Shown here one piece after another: positions 9,960-32,784 of a stretch of DNA of 33,395 bases. The stretch's first letter is position 1; each line of letters starts with the position of its first letter. The stretch spans positions 1 through 33,395 of the IMG/VR virus record IMGVR_UViG_3300026488_000040. One strand, 5' to 3'. Source of the stretch: a virus. Both the position numbers and the translations under genes were made by a program. The notes under the pieces were generated by a model. It was not told the origin of the DNA, ran no database searches, and saw only the letters and a list, made by a program, of their open reading frames with translations.

Positions 9960-11006
9960 TTACCAACTCTCTACAAATCCATATTTGTTTACAGTCTCTT
10001 TGTACCAGAAATCAGGAAAATATCCCATACTTGCCAGTTTCTTTCCATTGTTCAGTATATTCCTTATTCTTGTCTTGTAAGCCTTGATAGTAGATGCTTC
10101 TTTGTTATACACAGATAATTTTTCTAACACATCTTCCATATTCTTGATAATCCACTCTATCGTCTTGGTTCTTAACATCCAACCATATTTTCTTCTATGA
10201 TATTCATTTGCTATCAGAACCAACAGCCTCACATTGTATGTAGCATTGAATAAATCTCTCAACTCATCTACACTTAACAAGTGTAATGAATTCTTTTCAA
10301 GTTCTTCAAGATAAAGCTCAAATTCTTCAATCTTTTCTCTTGTTATCTCTACAACCTCTTCGTTGGTTCTGTTGATTAACTGTTCAACCATAGTCTGCTG
10401 AAGTTTGTGTTTTTTAAATTCTCTTTTATCCTTAAACGGAACAAAATCTTCAGGTATTCCCATCCTAATCAGACAGTCTGTGATATCATAAAACTCTGTA
10501 AATTCTTTACCAGGATATATTCTTTGTGACCTCATTACTATCTGATGAAACAAAGGATACGATTTAGTTGGTCTAAGGTTAATGATAGTATCTACATTCG
10601 GTGAATCGAATCCGATTGTTAAAGAAGTCACTGAAACTAATGTTTTAATCTTTCCTTTCTTGAAATCATCAATCACCTGTTGGTTCTTGTCTTTATCTTG
10701 TTTAGAGTGAACCACCTCTGCTGTTGGTTCTATCTTCTTAATCAAAGAACAGTATTCCTCTGCCATAGCAATATTGGAAGTGAAAACCAATGTTTGTCTT
10801 TTATTCAGAACCAACGATTCAGCAAACTTAACAAACCATTCTTTAAACTGCTTATCAGAGTACAGTTCTCTAATATCCTCTGCACTATAATCTGCTACAC
10901 CTTTATCAATCTTTTCAAAATCCATTGTTGTAACTATTCTTGGAATGTAATACTTAACATGTGATAAGTATCCTTTCTCTTCAGCTTCCCTTTGAGATAT
11001 AGGCAA
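9960..11006 (-). CDS. SF2 helicase, C-terminal fragment after frameshift
   Basis: This 348-codon frame continues the helicase begun at 11494. It has the second RecA-like domain: motif V-like SVTSLTIGFDSPNVDT and motif VI-like QIVMRSQRIYPGK, followed by a helical C-terminal extension of about 150 residues. The frame opens only a few codons upstream of a TTG at 11006 with no ribosome site, so it is unlikely to start by itself. Restoring one T in the TTTT run (minus strand, plus 11005-11008) would join the halves as NNTFLPISQREAEEKGYL, which reads as a normal helicase. The interruption is either a recent mutation, a sequencing error or, less likely, programmed shifting. Confidence 0.75.
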   Translation of the reverse strand: MPISQREAEEKGYLSHVKYYIPRIVTTMDFEKIDKGVADYSAEDIRELYSDKQFKEWFVKFAESLVLNKRQTLVFTSNIAMAEEYCSLIKKIEPTAEVVHSKQDKDKNQQVIDDFKKGKIKTLVSVTSLTIGFDSPNVDTIINLRPTKSYPLFHQIVMRSQRIYPGKEFTEFYDITDCLIRMGIPEDFVPFKDKREFKKHKLQQTMVEQLINRTNEEVVEITREKIEEFELYLEELEKNSLHLLSVDELRDLFNATYNVRLLVLIANEYHRRKYGWMLRTKTIEWIIKNMEDVLEKLSVYNKEASTIKAYKTRIRNILNNGKKLASMGYFPDFWYKETVNKYGFVESW

Positions 11007-11494
11007 AATGTATTGTTAAACATTTCAATTCCATTGAAATCAAAAGGAGTAGCAGTTAAACCTATCTTCTTCGTTGGTTCTAATTTATTAAGAATCAGTT
11101 TAAACCTGTCACCCTCAATTCTCTTATGATACTCATCTGCTATCAGTGCTATTTTACCAGTTGGTTCTAATTTATTGTTTTTAAGCCTGTTATAAAGCGT
11201 TTGGTCTGTTGATAGTATGATAGGACTATTTTTATCAGTTCGTTCATTATCGTTTAAGATAGACACGTTTAACGATGAATTTTTAAAATGTTCTCTCAGC
11301 TGATTAATAAGCTGAGAGATATCGCTAATAATAAACACTTGATATCCAGAACCAACAAGCTCTTTAGCAATGTGAGGAATAAGGAATGTTTTTCCTAATC
11401 CTCCCCAAAGCTCAATAACTAATTCATTCTCATCAGAACCAACAAACTCCTTGGTTCTTTCAATTACCTTTTTTTGATAACCCCTTAGTTTCAT
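10934..11494 (-). CDS. SF2 DEAD/DEAH-like helicase, N-terminal fragment
   Basis: The 186-residue frame carries the first RecA-like domain of a superfamily 2 helicase. Walker A is GGLGKT (residues 31-36), the DExH box is DEYH (120-123), and motif III-like TATP is at 147-150. It starts at ATG 11494 after AAAGGCATATA, inside the end of the preceding membrane-protein gene. About 30 residues after motif III it leaves the frame and stops at 10934 after a lysine-rich tail, while the remaining helicase domain continues in another frame. Phage helicases of this type unwind replication or recombination intermediates. The gene is dense with the GGTTCT word, with an inverted pair at 11435-11458. Confidence 0.8.
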   Translation of the reverse strand: MKLRGYQKKVIERTKEFVGSDENELVIELWGGLGKTFLIPHIAKELVGSGYQVFIISDISQLINQLREHFKNSSLNVSILNDNERTDKNSPIILSTDQTLYNRLKNNKLEPTGKIALIADEYHKRIEGDRFKLILNKLEPTKKIGLTATPFDFNGIEMFNNTFCLYLKGKLKRKDTYHMLSITFQE

Positions 11495-13753: not shown

Positions 13754-13891
13754 TTACTTGTTTAAATTGTTTAATAAAATATTTCTTATTTCAAAAACAA
13801 ACTGTGGTATATCTTCAGCTTCTGCACTGTCGTAAATTACTCCGTCTTCATAGATTTTGTATCTGTCTAAAATTACAGCAATAACTTTCAT
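13754..13891 (-). CDS. 45-residue hypothetical protein
   Basis: ATG 13891 overlaps the stop of the upstream gene (ATGATGA context, with a second in-frame ATG at 13894) behind AAAGGATTT. It encodes MKVIAVILDRYKIYEDGVIY followed by an acidic stretch and a hydrophobic C-terminal helix. The position, filling a 149-bp space between two coupled genes with proper initiation signals, supports it. Function is unknown. Confidence 0.6.
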   Translation of the reverse strand: MKVIAVILDRYKIYEDGVIYDSAEAEDIPQFVFEIRNILLNNLNK

Positions 13892-14193
13892 CATAAATCC
13901 TTTATGGCTTTCATTTTGTTTAATTCTGCTTTATAGTCAAGTTTCTGTTCAACACAGTTTTTAATAAACAAATACAATTGACTAAATACAGAACCACCAC
14001 TTATGTAAAAGTGAGTAGCTTTTCCTATTAGCCATTTAACAAGGGTTCTTTTTCCTTCATAGATATATCTGAATTCTTGGTTCTCGTAAATCAAAATAAC
14101 ATCATTTCCGTCATTAACAGCAATTTGAAAATCATTTTGAGAAGCCTTTTTTAATTGTTTTAAGGCTTCTTTTTTTATTTCATCTTTAAACAT
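13891..14193 (-). CDS. Hypothetical protein, 100 residues
   Basis: Starts at ATG 14193 after AAAGGATAGAT. An N-terminal amphipathic helix (DEIKKEALKQLKKA) is followed by a beta-rich segment and a helical C-terminus. I recognise no domain. It ends in an overlap with the small gene at 13891, 21 bp downstream of the homing endonuclease gene. Confidence 0.65.
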   Translation of the reverse strand: MFKDEIKKEALKQLKKASQNDFQIAVNDGNDVILIYENQEFRYIYEGKRTLVKWLIGKATHFYISGGSVFSQLYLFIKNCVEQKLDYKAELNKMKAIKDL

Positions 14194-14214
14194 ATCTATC
14201 CTTTGTTTTTTTAT

Positions 14215-14748
14215 TTATATAAACTCCCAAACATATCCTTTATGTGTTTTTCTTTTTTTGTTTGCTACAGCATTTATGTGTGAAGCATAAAAACCTCCAA
14301 TTCTTTGAGCATCCATTGCACAATCCCATATTTTTATTATTTTCCCATCTTTTGTTTTTTGTGCTACTTTTTTACTTCTACTATGTTCTTTTCCATATAG
14401 TTTTTTTGATAATCCATTATCATATGCGTGTTGGTTGTTCTCACTATATGTAACCCATTCTAAGTTATCTAATGAATTGTTTAACTTATTACCATCTTTA
14501 TGGTTTACACAACATTTATTTTCAGGATTAGGTATGAATGCTTCTGCTAATAATCTATGTAACAAAAGTTGTTTATATTTTCTATTTCCCGTTTTAAGAG
14601 TAACTATCTTATATCCATGTTTTCCTATACTTGGTTTAAGCCATTTTCCATTATGTCCACCTCCTCTATTTCCATTACGATGTGGTCTAGCGTAAATTCT
14701 CCCATCTTCATATAGTTCATATCTACCGAATAATAAAACTTTTTTCAT
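14215..14748 (-). CDS. HNH homing endonuclease (NUMOD4-type)
   Basis: This 177-residue free-standing endonuclease has an N-terminal NUMOD4-like part (YELYEDGRIYARP), an HNH nuclease core with LLLHRLLAEAF (H64) and VNHKDGNKLNNSLDNLEWVT (H83, N91), and a C-terminal NUMOD1-like DNA-binding helix pair ending KTHKGYVWEF. Such enzymes cut cognate DNA lacking the gene and spread by repair. The start at 14748 has AAAGGACATAAA before it; the upstream in-frame ATG at 14790 lies upstream of the promoter and lacks a ribosome site. The gene has no copy of the GGTTCT word although flanking genes do, as expected for a recent arrival. Expression appears controlled by the hairpin/promoter just upstream. Confidence 0.88.
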   Translation of the reverse strand: MKKVLLFGRYELYEDGRIYARPHRNGNRGGGHNGKWLKPSIGKHGYKIVTLKTGNRKYKQLLLHRLLAEAFIPNPENKCCVNHKDGNKLNNSLDNLEWVTYSENNQHAYDNGLSKKLYGKEHSRSKKVAQKTKDGKIIKIWDCAMDAQRIGGFYASHINAVANKKRKTHKGYVWEFI

Positions 14749-14751
14749 TTT

Positions 14752-14784
14752 ATGTCCTTTACATTTTTGTGTAGGGACATTATA
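14752..14784 (-). promoter_or_regulatory. Extended -10 promoter overlapping an RBS-sequestering hairpin
   Basis: On the minus strand TGGTATAAT gives an extended -10 (TATAAT at 14784-14779); no good -35 is seen. ATGTCC (14780-14775) can pair with GGACAT (14757-14752), with an inner TACA/TGTA pairing. This buries the ribosome site AAAGGA of the endonuclease gene. A transcript starting from this promoter (about 14772) would lack the 5' arm and leave the site free, whereas read-through RNA from upstream would be folded shut. This is the same logic as T4 I-TevI. Confidence 0.65.
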
Positions 14785-14796
14785 CCACAATTTTGT

Positions 14797-15249
14797 TTAA
14801 TCTTTATTAAAACAGCATAAATAATCCGCCCTGTACCATTTAGCTTTTGCTTCTGGGGATTTGTCTTTTACGAATTTTCCGTCAATAATAGAACCAACTC
14901 TGCTGTTTATTTCCTTAGACACTTCATTAAGCACACATCTTGGATCATATCCAAGTTTCATAATAGAACCAACAGAGAAAACTATAATATCTGCAAAAGC
15001 ATCAACAAGTTTTTCTTCTTCAACTGGTTCATAATTTCTAAAGTGCTGATATATTGTTTTAGCTTTATCTCTTGCATACAGGCTTTCATATCCAAGCATC
15101 TCAACAAGTTCTTCAAGTATATGTAATACTTCTGTTTCAAAATTAAATGGTTGTTTATCTAACAACCTATCTTTTTGAAATTTAATAATTCCATCAATAC
15201 TATCTTGAACATTAGAGTTTTTTATTGATTTGTTTTGACAATCTTTCAT
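14797..15249 (-). CDS. MazG-like nucleotide pyrophosphohydrolase
   Basis: The 150-residue all-alpha protein has ETEVLHILEELVEMLGY (metal-binding glutamates about residues 39-48), then EEEKLVDAFADIIVFSVGSIMKLG and a final GKFVKDKSPEAK. This is the usual order for MazG/phosphoribosyl-ATP-pyrophosphohydrolase-like enzymes that hydrolyse NTPs to NMPs. In phages they adjust nucleotide pools or alarmones. Start ATG 15249 has an AAAAGGAG ribosome site located within the overlapping small gene upstream. Two GTTGGTTCT-type words lie in its second half. Confidence 0.82.
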   Translation of the reverse strand: MKDCQNKSIKNSNVQDSIDGIIKFQKDRLLDKQPFNFETEVLHILEELVEMLGYESLYARDKAKTIYQHFRNYEPVEEEKLVDAFADIIVFSVGSIMKLGYDPRCVLNEVSKEINSRVGSIIDGKFVKDKSPEAKAKWYRADYLCCFNKD

Positions 15250-18326: not shown

Positions 18327-20423
18327 TTAATTATATTTTCTTTTTAAACTTGCTAATACAGTTTTTCTTAATTCCTTTTCACTGATTGGTTCTGAAAGCA
18401 TAGAGTTAGCTTTATAAAGCTCTTCTTCTATTCTTTCAAATGAACCAGTTAAATCTCCTATAAAAGAACCGAGTCTGAACAGATTGTTTGATCTGTTTCC
18501 TTCATATGTGTTATTAATGAACCATTTAATCATTCCGCCTATTCTACGATTAACTTCATCTGTGTCATAATCTTTTTCATCAAATTTCTCTATTTGTCTT
18601 TCAATTATTTCTCTCACTTCCGTATCAGGTAAATAAGGAATAACGTCAAATAATTCACCTTGTTGGTTCTTAAATATTTGGCATTCAGGATTTGTAAACC
18701 ACAACCTGTCCTGATTTCTTGTAGATACATCATAAGAACCAACGCTTAATGCTTCACAAACATTAGTTATTAGTTCTTTATGTCTTTCGTTATCTACAAA
18801 GAATTTAGTTTTTGTTGGTAAAAGTATCCTAAATCTATCACAAACTAAACCACCTTTATCTTTTTGATGTGATTTAGTTGTATAGATTAGATACACATAA
18901 TCTTTTAGTTTTTCAATGGTTTCTTGTAACGTAATACCGTTATCAACATCTATTCCTATACAGTTTTGCCCTTCAATAGTTTTATCTGATTTTCTCTTTC
19001 CATTCTCAAAATGGACTAGACAGAAGTTCGACACCTTATCTGACTTAACTAATCTTTCTACAGATTGGTTCTCTCCAAAAAATGGCACTTCCATACTGAT
19101 ATAATCAGTAGTTTTTTCTTTTTTATCAACTTTAGGAATAGATACAATGATTTTATTCAAATCAATTATAGGCATTGGTTCTATTGAAAATGTTTTTATT
19201 TTAGAACCACGCACCTGTAATACCTCATTTTTTCTGTAAGCATATTCTTCTACTAATTTTATGTCTTCATTAAATGTCATCCTATTGAATATATCGCTTT
19301 CAAGTATTTCTGATTTTGTGGCTTTTCCTAATTTTTTAATTACTCTGTATATTCTTCTATGCTGTGGTTCTACATTAAAAAGTTCTAAATTAGTACTTCT
19401 TACGCGTTTATAGAAATTATAAGCATATTCTACGTCATCGTAAGAGATTTGCTTTCTACGATTAAGTAAAGCATGTAAAGCACTTAATTTTAACAATTTA
19501 TCAAAAGAACCAACTTCTGCACTAAATCTTTCATCTTCTTTGTACTTATTGGCAAATTCTACAAGTTCATGATTGATAAGTTCAAGATATTCTTCTGCAT
19601 CTACTGTAAAATATAACTCAGGATAATTTCCTGAATCAACTATTTCTTTGATATATTTGTTTATATATTTTCTTATAAAAGATAAATCAGGCTGTTCATA
19701 ATACTCTGTATCAGTTCTTAATTGAATATCCGTTGGTTCTTGATAATAAATAAAACTTCTTCTGTATATCCCAGAACCAAGTGCTTTAGCAAAATATTCA
19801 TATACCTTTTGATCTCTTTTAAGAGAAGTAGATGAACCGAATATGAGCATATTTGAAACTATTCCATAGATGTTATCATTTATAGAAGATTTAATCACTT
19901 TACCTATAAATCTTCCATCGTAAAGCTCTTTCATTACGTTGAGATTACTATCCCTAATAACATCCATTATTTCTTCGTGAATCAAATTTAAAGAACCAAA
20001 GAAACTTTTAGATAAAGCTAAAGCTCTTAAATATAATCCCTCTTTAGTTCCTTCTATTGTGTTTTCAAAGTTAGGAATATAGTTTTTAATGTTTGTTTGG
20101 AAGCCGTCTATTGTAATTTCATCATCTGTAGGATTATTGGTATTTAGCTCATATCCTTTTGTTATTAGAGCTTTATATTTAAAATTCAAGTCTCCACCAA
20201 ATAGTTTTTTGCATTGTTCATAAACAAAACTCTTTCCTGCTGATGACGGGGCTATTGTTATTCCAAAATAGTTGATGTTGTAGAGTTTGTATTTGTATTC
20301 AACTTTTGGTTGCACAGAACCAAGCACAGATGAAAAAGTAAACCAGAAAGCATTCTCAATAAGTTCTCTTTGAGATACAAATCTTCCTTGTGAATTTATA
20401 TAATTGATGATTTGATTAATCAT
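18327..20423 (-). CDS. Helicase-primase: N-terminal ATPase, C-terminal AEP primase plus PriCT
   Basis: The 698-residue protein has Walker A APSSAGKS (residues 58-65) in a DUF3987-like ATPase region to about 350, then a winged-helix-like segment (RRIYRVIKKLGKATKSEIL). The C-terminal half looks like an archaeo-eukaryotic-type primase: GIDVDNG (D492, D494), YTTKSHQ (S518, H519), DRFRILLP, and SYDVSTRNQDRLWF (D565, R573). It ends with a PriCT-like helical segment (SEKELRKTVLASL). It should prime and perhaps unwind DNA for phage replication. Domain order is reversed relative to the usual primase-then-helicase proteins. Start ATG 20423 follows AAAGGGTAACAT. Confidence 0.82.
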   Translation of the reverse strand: MINQIINYINSQGRFVSQRELIENAFWFTFSSVLGSVQPKVEYKYKLYNINYFGITIAPSSAGKSFVYEQCKKLFGGDLNFKYKALITKGYELNTNNPTDDEITIDGFQTNIKNYIPNFENTIEGTKEGLYLRALALSKSFFGSLNLIHEEIMDVIRDSNLNVMKELYDGRFIGKVIKSSINDNIYGIVSNMLIFGSSTSLKRDQKVYEYFAKALGSGIYRRSFIYYQEPTDIQLRTDTEYYEQPDLSFIRKYINKYIKEIVDSGNYPELYFTVDAEEYLELINHELVEFANKYKEDERFSAEVGSFDKLLKLSALHALLNRRKQISYDDVEYAYNFYKRVRSTNLELFNVEPQHRRIYRVIKKLGKATKSEILESDIFNRMTFNEDIKLVEEYAYRKNEVLQVRGSKIKTFSIEPMPIIDLNKIIVSIPKVDKKEKTTDYISMEVPFFGENQSVERLVKSDKVSNFCLVHFENGKRKSDKTIEGQNCIGIDVDNGITLQETIEKLKDYVYLIYTTKSHQKDKGGLVCDRFRILLPTKTKFFVDNERHKELITNVCEALSVGSYDVSTRNQDRLWFTNPECQIFKNQQGELFDVIPYLPDTEVREIIERQIEKFDEKDYDTDEVNRRIGGMIKWFINNTYEGNRSNNLFRLGSFIGDLTGSFERIEEELYKANSMLSEPISEKELRKTVLASLKRKYN

Positions 20424-23559: not shown

Positions 23560-24441
23560 TTATTGTTTGAGTTTTAAAATCTCTGGTCTTCCATCTGAAA
23601 TAACATCAAACAGCTCATAGATATATTCTTTGTACTCTTGTTTATGTTTTAATAAATTTCTCGTTAAATCAGATTTTTTGATTTTTTGTAGATTAAAGTT
23701 ATATGTTTTTTTATTAATTTCTACAATGTAATCTCTTATTTGGTTCAATATAGCAATTTTTGATGAGACAGTTATTTTTTCACCTATATGCAAAGTAACA
23801 TCTCTTGATTTTTCAACAATAAAAGAGTCGCCATGCTGTGGTTTTTTATAGTCTGTTGGTTCATATCTTAATACAACATTAGCTATTCTCTTTTTTCCTT
23901 CTTCATTGCCCTCAAGTTTAAATTTTTTATCTGAAAGCATTTCATTGGTTCTTGTAGAATGGTCTATTATTATGCAGGATAGACTATGTTTTTCTACAAA
24001 TGATGAGAACTCATACATTTTTGAAACAAACTTTTCAGAGTTGTTTATTTCAGTAAATCTAAATATTGATGAAAAAGAGTCTATTATAAAAATAACATTT
24101 TTTTCTAAAAATCTTTCTCTGATTTTGATTAAACTTGTTAAAATATCACTTAAAGAAACATTTGTGCTTTTAGCATAAATGATTCCTTTATTTTCTACAA
24201 ATTCCTTAAATATTTTTCCGTTTCCTGCTTCTCCATCAAAATAGATTACTAAATTATTTTCATTTATATCAGAACCAACAAGCTCTGCTGTTTGATAGCT
24301 TTTTCCTGTACCTGATAAACCATGAATCCATGTAATAGAACCAACGTAGCATGGCAGATTATTTATTCTTACAGCTTCTGTTGGTTCTGTTAAAAACTCT
24401 TTATTTATTGTAGAAAAGATATTAGTTACTGCTGTTTTCAT
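23560..24441 (-). CDS. RepA/AAA_25-like RecA-fold ATPase
   Basis: The 293-residue protein has Walker A GLSGTGKS (41-48), Walker B VIFIIDSFSS (D121) and a later CIIIDHSTR, the core of RecA/DnaB-superfamily ATPases such as RepA-like helicases and Rad55-like proteins. The C-terminal 60 residues are basic and helical. It could be the replicative helicase or loader, working with the primase fusion, or a second recombinase. Start ATG 24441 follows AAGGAAAAGAA and overlaps the small RHH gene. A candidate origin lies about 250 bp upstream. Confidence 0.75.
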   Translation of the reverse strand: MKTAVTNIFSTINKEFLTEPTEAVRINNLPCYVGSITWIHGLSGTGKSYQTAELVGSDINENNLVIYFDGEAGNGKIFKEFVENKGIIYAKSTNVSLSDILTSLIKIRERFLEKNVIFIIDSFSSIFRFTEINNSEKFVSKMYEFSSFVEKHSLSCIIIDHSTRTNEMLSDKKFKLEGNEEGKKRIANVVLRYEPTDYKKPQHGDSFIVEKSRDVTLHIGEKITVSSKIAILNQIRDYIVEINKKTYNFNLQKIKKSDLTRNLLKHKQEYKEYIYELFDVISDGRPEILKLKQ

Positions 24442-24688: not shown

Positions 24689-24873
24689 GGGACATGTACC
24701 GAATGTACCGAAAATAGTTGGTACATTCGAAATGCCGATTTTATGGGGGTTTTGAATGTCCCGAAAGAATGAATGTCCCAAGAAAGTTGGGACATTCGGA
24801 AGCCCGAATTTTCGGGGGTTTGAGAAATGTACCGAATGTCCCTTATATTATATATTATATTTCTGGTACATTC
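24689..24873. repeat. 70-bp tandem duplication with co-varying palindromes; candidate origin or operator
   Basis: Two units, starting at 24701 and 24771, align over about 50 bp. Each begins with a palindrome: CGAATGTACC...GGTACATTCG (24700-24709/24720-24729) and GAATGTCCCA...TGGGACATTC (24771-24780/24788-24797). An A-to-C change in one arm is matched by T-to-G in the other. Each unit continues to a GGGGGTTT. Further copies of ATGTACC/ATGTCCC lie at 24689-24700, 24826-24843 and 24865-24873. An AT-only stretch follows 24843. No gene covers 24593-24891. The region is GC-richer than its surroundings and has no GGTTCT word. Confidence 0.85.
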
Positions 24874-31263: not shown

Positions 31264-32763
31264 ATGATAATAGAAAGAAAAAGATATGATGAACCATACA
31301 TACCAAAGCATAAAGAAACATTAAAGTTTTTTGTATGGTTCAATTCTTTTTTTAAAGAAGAAAATAGAAGTGCTGAAGCACATTTTCAATTGGTAGACCA
31401 TCTTCTGTCAAAGGATAAACATAAAGTAATCATGTGTCACAGGGGTTTAGGAAAATCTGCTCTTACTAAATACAATATACTTCGTTGGCTCTATCTTGGG
31501 AAAAAACCAAATTTTGGAGAGTTTGATTATATTCTTGTTATTCAGGACAGTGTAGCAATGGTAGAATCTACTTTTGAGACCTTATTGGCTCTTATTGAAC
31601 AAAGTGAATTAAATAAGGTTCTTGAGATTAGAAAGAAGAGATTAGGAGATGACCCTACTATTTATATCTGGCATAAAGAACTTCAAAAAATGTTCTATCT
31701 CAAAGGACGTGGCTCTGGACAGAGTTTAAGAGGAACTAATATAGCTAATAAGCGTCCTAATATTGTAATTCTTGACGATATTGAAAATGATGAGAAGCAT
31801 TCTACTAAAGAATCAAGAACCAAGCTGAAAAACTGGTTTAATAACGTAGTAAGACCTGCTATAAATCCCAACAAGTATGAGTTTATTTTTATTGGAACTC
31901 CAATACATGAAGATTCTTTGTTGCTTGATTTAGTAAGAAGTAAAAGCTGGAAGACTATAGTTTTACCTGTTGCAGAGGATTTTCCACCAGAAGATTGGAA
32001 TAAACTTATAACTTCTTGGTCTGACAGATTTACGCCTAAGTATGTCAGGGAGATTTATGAAGATTTAAAAGATCAAGGTAAAGAAACCTCTTTCTATCAA
32101 GAATATATGCTTCAGGTTACCCCTAAAGACGATTTATTGTTTAATATGGAGAATATTAACTACTACAAAATCGATGATTTAAAAGATAAACTTGGTTCTC
32201 TAACTTACTATATATCTGTTGATTTAGCAGTATCTGAAAAATCTTATGCAGACTATACTGCTATCAGTGTTGTAGGAATAGATGAGAACAACAACTGGTT
32301 CTTGGTAGATGGATTCTTTGGAAGAATTAAACCTGACGAAACAATAGACAGGATATTTACTTTAGTTGCAAGATGGAATCCATACGCAGTGGTTCTTGAA
32401 AAAGTTGCTTTTCAATTATCTATGAAAACATTTATTCAAAACGAGATGGTCAAAAGAGGTAAATTCTTCAATCTTCAAATGGTAAACAGAACCAAAGCAA
32501 AGTTAGCAGTATTCAAAGCTCTTCAACCTGTTGTAGAGATGGGCAGATTATGGTTACCAAAGACACATATGAAAGAGTTTGTTGATGAACTGAAACATGA
32601 AATGAGCTTGATTACAAATGATTCTATACTAGCTAAACATGATGATTTAATAGATTCGTTAGCTCAATTAACACTCATAGATATGATTTATGCAGAACCA
32701 ATAAACTATTCGGATAATGAAGGAATTGTTGATGAGAGCTTTACAAACCCCTATTTGTTTTAA
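31264..32763 (+). CDS. terL: Terminase large subunit
   Basis: The 499-residue motor protein has Walker A HRGLGKS (59-65), Walker B VILDDIE (D171, D172, E174), and an RNase-H-like nuclease with SVDLA (D320), VVLEKVAF (E379) and KHDDLIDSLA (D460/D461). It cuts and pumps DNA into the procapsid. Full length and all catalytic residues are present. Start ATG 31264 follows TTAGGAGAAATA. It is preceded by a 56-bp gap holding one copy of the dispersed word and followed by an extended -10 promoter. Confidence 0.93.
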   Translation: MIIERKRYDEPYIPKHKETLKFFVWFNSFFKEENRSAEAHFQLVDHLLSKDKHKVIMCHRGLGKSALTKYNILRWLYLGKKPNFGEFDYILVIQDSVAMVESTFETLLALIEQSELNKVLEIRKKRLGDDPTIYIWHKELQKMFYLKGRGSGQSLRGTNIANKRPNIVILDDIENDEKHSTKESRTKLKNWFNNVVRPAINPNKYEFIFIGTPIHEDSLLLDLVRSKSWKTIVLPVAEDFPPEDWNKLITSWSDRFTPKYVREIYEDLKDQGKETSFYQEYMLQVTPKDDLLFNMENINYYKIDDLKDKLGSLTYYISVDLAVSEKSYADYTAISVVGIDENNNWFLVDGFFGRIKPDETIDRIFTLVARWNPYAVVLEKVAFQLSMKTFIQNEMVKRGKFFNLQMVNRTKAKLAVFKALQPVVEMGRLWLPKTHMKEFVDELKHEMSLITNDSILAKHDDLIDSLAQLTLIDMIYAEPINYSDNEGIVDESFTNPYLF

Positions 32764-32775
32764 ATATTTTTTTTA

Positions 32776-32784
32776 TGATATAAT
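32776..32784 (+). promoter_or_regulatory. Extended -10 promoter
   Basis: TGATATAAT (32776-32784) is an extended -10 box; a weak TTGTTT lies 18 bp upstream. It would drive the gene starting at 32809. Confidence 0.5.

Follow-up and report, generated by a model that had tools for sequence, protein, structure and literature searches.

A candidate promoter-inside-hairpin leader on a free-standing HNH homing endonuclease gene in a phage replication operon

The window, by which we mean the whole stretch of DNA that was analysed, is a phage contig of 33,395 bases (G000) with a GC content of 29%. On the minus strand lies a replication operon, whose genes encode primase, single-strand binding protein, a Sak4-like annealing protein, exonuclease, thymidylate synthase, resolvase and helicase. 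Inside this operon, a free-standing gene of 177 aa (14215-14748, minus strand) sits between the upstream gene of a MazG-like pyrophosphatase (14797-15249, minus strand; phrog_715, E 7.6e-10), the source of the read-through RNA considered below, and a small downstream gene of unassigned function (13891-14193, minus strand). The gene matched Pfam HNH_3 (E 1.3e-11; 44.3 bits with a cut-off of 24.8) and phrog_59 (E 1e-37), and its product matched the HNH homing endonuclease of PDB entry 1u3e (E 2.6e-10) over 144 aligned residues that included the C-terminal part. The ends of the protein resembled NUMOD elements weakly (I-HmuI NUMOD-like, 12.9 bits; NUMOD4, 9.9 bits; both under the Pfam cut-offs). 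By its HNH_3 motif and its similarity to I-HmuI, we class the gene as a putative HNH homing endonuclease gene of the I-HmuI type.

The phage itself looks like a distant relative of N4. The nearest podoviruses by terminase (31264-32763) and primase (18327-20423) include Alteromonas AD45, Vibrio BUCT194 and Pseudomonas KPP21 (23-32% identity), which we take to be N4-like. The phrog_16 helicase (9960-11494, minus strand) is split over two overlapping frames covering profile positions 271-427 and 437-641, possibly by a frameshift that is either real or an assembly error. A 9-mer, GTTGGTTCT/AGAACCAAC, occurs 65 times in the window, about 2 per kb (e.g. at 2634, 4098, 11073, 11160 and 24380), often in frame within genes, where it encodes EPT or VGS tripeptides (KLEPTGK and KLEPTKK in the helicase). 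Related phage contigs carry GTTGGTTCT at 1.1-2.7 per kb. No excess of this 9-mer was found across 81 Campylobacterota genomes, leaving the guess of a Campylobacterota host unsupported.

The leader of the HNH gene is 48 nt long, counted from the stop codon of the MazG-like gene to the HNH ATG at 14748, and reads on the minus strand TTAAACAAAATTG-TGG-TATAAT-GTCCCTACACAAAAATGTAAAGGACATAAA-ATG. The initial annotation had placed a hairpin over the ribosome site, with its 5' arm overlapping an extended -10 promoter, and both features are present. The arms ATGTCC (14780-14775) and GGACAT (14757-14752) enclose an inner stem of TACA (14773-14770) and TGTA (14763-14760) with a 6-nt loop, and the Shine-Dalgarno (SD) sequence AAAGGA (14760-14755) lies partly within the 3' arm. 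The extended -10 element TGGTATAAT (14787-14779) shares its last bases with the 5' arm. Spacing from the hexamer predicts a transcription start 7 nt downstream, at A14772, in agreement with the position proposed earlier, and by its coordinates an RNA starting there is devoid of the whole 5' arm. The local promoter would thus be placed so that its RNA omits the 5' arm, a placement not conserved in the related contig L004 described below. Since the MazG-like stop codon lies 16 nt ahead of the 5' arm, a ribosome terminating there should not melt the stem.

Other readings of the leader were discarded. Translation from a TTG at 14790 would be in frame, but this codon has no SD ahead of it and a nonsynonymous change is found in L004. 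An intrinsic terminator of the MazG-like gene would require a U run, and here the stem is followed by AAAATGAAA; the site was also absent from the terminator scan. Hairpin promoters of the N4 type have short stems and 3-nt loops, unlike the dyad of the HNH leader.

Ahead of the HNH gene we found no match to a -35 element, the best hexamer being ATAAAG, and the leader contains no T4-type late-promoter motif (TATAAATA); the element present is an extended -10 of the sigma-70 type. The leader therefore lacks the late promoter on which a time switch of the I-TevI type in T4-like phages would depend. The sequence TGNTATAAT occurs three times in the window, no more often than composition predicts. 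Eight of its 13 sites in 14 contigs from the phage family are intergenic, non-coding DNA making up about 15%, and several lie 30-40 nt ahead of a gene. A further extended -10, TGATATAAT at 32776-32784, lies downstream of the terminase gene, after a run of T, and has a counterpart with similar flanks in contig L022 (position 43, minus strand; TGTTATAAT versus TGATATAAT in the window), making it a probable promoter. Judged by the intergenic bias, the spacing before genes and the conserved site at 32776, extended -10 boxes look like real promoters in this phage lineage.

In read-through RNA the stem over the SD is of moderate stability, with a minimum free energy of -8.9 kcal/mol for the leader hairpin. 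Mean SD openness, calculated in a context of -70..+20, was 0.39 in the read-through RNA compared with 0.87 in the RNA from 14772; with other context lengths at 37 C the short-RNA value ranged from 0.53 to 0.77, and the read-through value stayed at about 0.35. Against shuffled sequence the fold was unexceptional (z -1.1, 27 of 200 shuffles folding as well; z -1.8 and 10 of 200 in a tighter frame). When leaders were shuffled with the -10 box fixed, 14% concealed the SD at least as well, and 1.8% also freed it in the short RNA by the threshold used, i.e. formed a comparable lock. In 11 of the window's 38 genes the SD is less open than that of the HNH gene. Because of these shuffling results and the more concealed SDs elsewhere in the window, the hairpin by itself is weak evidence and could be due to chance. 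The 6-bp stem may simply be incidental, in a leader that is AT-rich and has a good -10 box, and may have no regulatory effect, the endonuclease being expressed from its own promoter, from read-through or from both. We consider this reading a serious one, though somewhat improbable; what counts against it comes from the sister genes below.

In five contigs of this phage family (L016, L017, L019, L020 and L021) the site is empty: the MazG-like gene is followed directly by the small downstream gene, and the HNH gene is missing. The window and L004 (IMGVR_UViG_3300026484_000168) are occupied. This presence/absence polymorphism at one site identifies the HNH gene with its leader as a mobile insertion. 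From the empty sites and the alignment with L004, the mobile cassette would span approximately 14205-14838 (minus strand; left edge uncertain) and comprise the leader, the HNH gene and an altered 3' end of the upstream gene.

In L004, which has the only close homologue, the HNH gene is again accompanied by the leader, near position 2332. The two HNH proteins are 92% identical, and their genes differ at 28 of 534 nt (dN 0.037, dS 0.118, dN/dS ~0.3); dS of the MazG-like gene between the same contigs is 0.36. An exact pattern scan of viral contigs found this leader in the window and L004 alone, and two sequences are too few for covariation. The L004 leader has one change in 48 nt, which is not significantly below expectation from the 5% divergence of the gene. 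The change leaves the stem intact and converts TATAAT to TGTAAT, removing -11A, the base that is best conserved in -10 boxes, and should cripple the local promoter. It can be read either as an argument against a required promoter or as the sign of a silent copy. The loss of -11A beside an intact HNH reading frame is what would be expected if the endonuclease were on its way out and promoter or hairpin had become non-functional in some copies. With dN/dS at about 0.3 between the two HNH genes and a consensus -10 box in the window copy, we regard such a decayed lock or silent cassette as very improbable.

The dyad ATGTCC...GGACAT over the -10 box and the start could also act as DNA, namely as an operator for a phage regulator or for the endonuclease itself. 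At 24702-24872, upstream of an ATPase-like gene of 293 aa (23560-24441), eight repeats of the type GAATGT(A/C)CC occur in both orientations and form an iteron- or operator-like cluster. This cluster and the HNH leader share the repeat unit AATGTCCC, of which the 5' arm is part, and ATGTCCC was found in 6 copies compared with 1.4 expected. Dyads also border extended -10 promoters elsewhere in the phage family: at L022:6194 and L024:4994, about 30-40 nt before a gene, they are of the type TGACAC/GTGTCA and are probable repressor operators. There is also a precedent in I-TevI, which binds an operator over its own late promoter and represses itself (PMC2988022). On the other hand, the arms of the HNH dyad are unequal beyond 6 bp and the 3' arm falls on the SD, and the cluster at 24.7 kb was not seen in the related contigs that were compared. 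In the sister leaders of L007, L120 and L149 the arms likewise cover the SD, a position needed by an RNA lock and not by an operator. We therefore think it unlikely that the dyad serves as an operator.

The layout of the leader recurs on sister HNH genes. A first homologue search yielded two HNH genes, 37% and 41% identical to that of the window, whose leaders have the same layout in unrelated letters. The SD of the L007 gene is covered by a stem of 12 pairs, whose 5' arm has TGTTATAAT at its inner end (z -5.4); that of the L005 gene is covered by one of 14 pairs, with TGATATAAT in the loop (z -1.95). The leaders of L120 (z -5.4) and L149 (z -4.6) follow the same design, and those of L007, L120 and L149 fold more strongly than that of the window. 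Such very strong cases are difficult to reconcile with an incidental stem and, if the lock is real, L007, L120 and L149 are much better test objects than the weak hairpin of the window. A second HNH gene of the window's phage family, located at a different place (L018:1591), has TGGTATAAT within a structure of z -3.4; in this structure the SD stays largely open, and the gene next to it upstream has the opposite orientation.

We compared HNH genes with every other gene on their contigs, with start codons and SDs chosen automatically; 76 of 181 HNH genes were dropped for want of a usable SD or of sufficient upstream sequence, and the discovery cases (window, L005, L007 and L018) were left out of the HNH counts. 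Extended -10 boxes were scored at -62..-20. A predicted lock was defined as an SD openness below 0.4 that is higher by 0.3 or more in the short RNA. Concealment of the SD alone was not enriched on HNH genes (23% versus 19% on other genes). Extended -10 boxes were found on 9/96 HNH and 44/1117 other genes in the first sample (p 0.02) and on 10/74 and 26/748 in a second sample, for which the test had been set up beforehand (p 0.0007); with the samples pooled (170 HNH and 1865 other genes), they were about three times commoner on HNH genes (p = 8e-5).

Predicted locks numbered 4/96 on HNH genes versus 10/1117 on others in the first sample (p 0.02), on which looser thresholds had been tried, and 2/74 versus 3/748 in the second sample alone (p 0.067), before whose result the thresholds were fixed. 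The pooled counts were 6/170 and 13/1865 (odds ratio 5.2, p 0.003) and, when the controls were restricted to genes with a similar upstream gap, 6/104 and 10/807 (odds ratio 4.9, p 0.006). An upstream gene on the same strand, which a read-through lock needs, was present for four of the six predicted locks on HNH genes. Under a strict rule of at least eight unbroken pairs, the discovery cases L005 and L007 are the only HNH genes to pass. The predicted lock is thus recurrent but rare on HNH genes, at about 4%. That some 96% of the sister genes show none by the same measure fits a chance origin of the window's stem; against it stands the joint occurrence of a -10 box, a stem over the SD and a 5' arm missing from the short RNA, five times commoner on HNH genes than on others. 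This combination is better supported than the hairpin alone. Among the control genes, L336:923-2437 has a predicted promoter-in-hairpin leader; by eye we presume this gene to resemble an IS1595-type transposase gene, another mobile gene, which suggests that the device may guard transposases as well.

For the window we propose that an HNH cassette, with a leader of its own, entered the replication operon at a boundary between two genes. Read-through RNA of the operon, holding both arms, would fold, and the endonuclease would be poorly translated from it. Host RNA polymerase acting at the extended -10 box would produce an RNA from about 14772 that is devoid of the 5' arm and can be translated. 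Such a lock would block nuclease synthesis from operon transcription and tie it to the gene's own promoter. The sequences show the anatomy, the insertion and the return of the layout on sister genes, and from these we infer promoter activity, folding in vivo and the effect on translation. The earlier proposal that only read-through RNA folds and local RNA escapes therefore stands as a prediction: it fits the anatomy and recurs on sister genes, and it is opposed by the moderate hairpin, the missing -35 element and the loss of -11A in L004. Whether the lock of the window gene works as described is, in our judgement, evenly balanced. With a promoter of the sigma-70 type in place of a T4 late promoter, this leader makes better sense as insulation against read-through from the operon than as a time switch.

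More tentatively, a promoter-inside-hairpin leader based on an extended -10 of the host's sigma-70 type may evolve again and again on free-standing HNH homing endonuclease genes, in many phages that are unrelated. It would insulate these genes against read-through, arise anew in each lineage with a sequence of its own and coexist with unlocked relatives. If this is true, the lock of T4-like phages is a wider, repeatedly arisen trait of phage HNH genes and draws on ordinary host promoters, and it would explain how HNH genes reside inside early or middle operons without over-expression.

I-HmuI of phage SPO1 (1u3e), an HNH homing endonuclease with sequence similarity to the window gene, is intron-encoded, whereas the window gene stands alone between genes. 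Perhaps the nearest functional parallel to the window lock is the protection of IS10 and IS50 from read-through. There, read-through RNA folds over the ribosome-binding site (RBS) of the transposase gene, and RNA from the gene's own sigma-70 promoter is without the 5' arm. These are transposases of insertion sequences and not homing endonucleases, and IS10 also uses antisense RNA.

Among homing endonucleases, T4 I-TevI of the td intron uses the logic ascribed to it in the initial annotation: RNA from upstream promoters forms a hairpin that takes up the RBS, and a promoter within the structure yields RNA too short to fold (PMC2988022). The same arrangement of promoter and hairpin has been given for I-TevII, I-TevIII, segB and Aeh1 mobE (PMC2988022, PMC3014915). 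Experiments support the logic for I-TevI and for mobE of Aeromonas phage Aeh1 (PMC2988022, PMC3014915), where the RNA hairpin was shown to reduce translation initiation (PMC3014915); T4 segB is implicated. As mobE is already a free-standing HNH homing endonuclease, the claim that the logic is new on such an enzyme falls (PMC2988022, PMC3014915). The suggestion of transferred control is likewise unsupported, since the sister leaders are alike in layout and not in sequence.

The window gene is likely a member of this lock class, with differences from each known case. I-TevI shares the RBS hairpin with an internal promoter, as do I-TevII and I-TevIII, but is an intron-borne GIY-YIG enzyme whose T4 late promoter acts as a time switch; the window gene is HNH, free-standing and on a sigma-70-type extended -10. 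T4 segB, a free-standing endonuclease gene with an RBS hairpin and a predicted late promoter (PMC2988022), belongs to the GIY-YIG family and differs by its T4 late promoter. Aeh1 mobE, likened here by arrangement and not by sequence, is a free-standing HNH homing endonuclease gene with the same placing of promoter and hairpin, but it has a late promoter, lies embedded within nrdA and belongs to a T4-like phage, unlike the window gene. What sets the present leader apart from the known locks is its sigma-70-type promoter and its occurrence in non-T4 phages.
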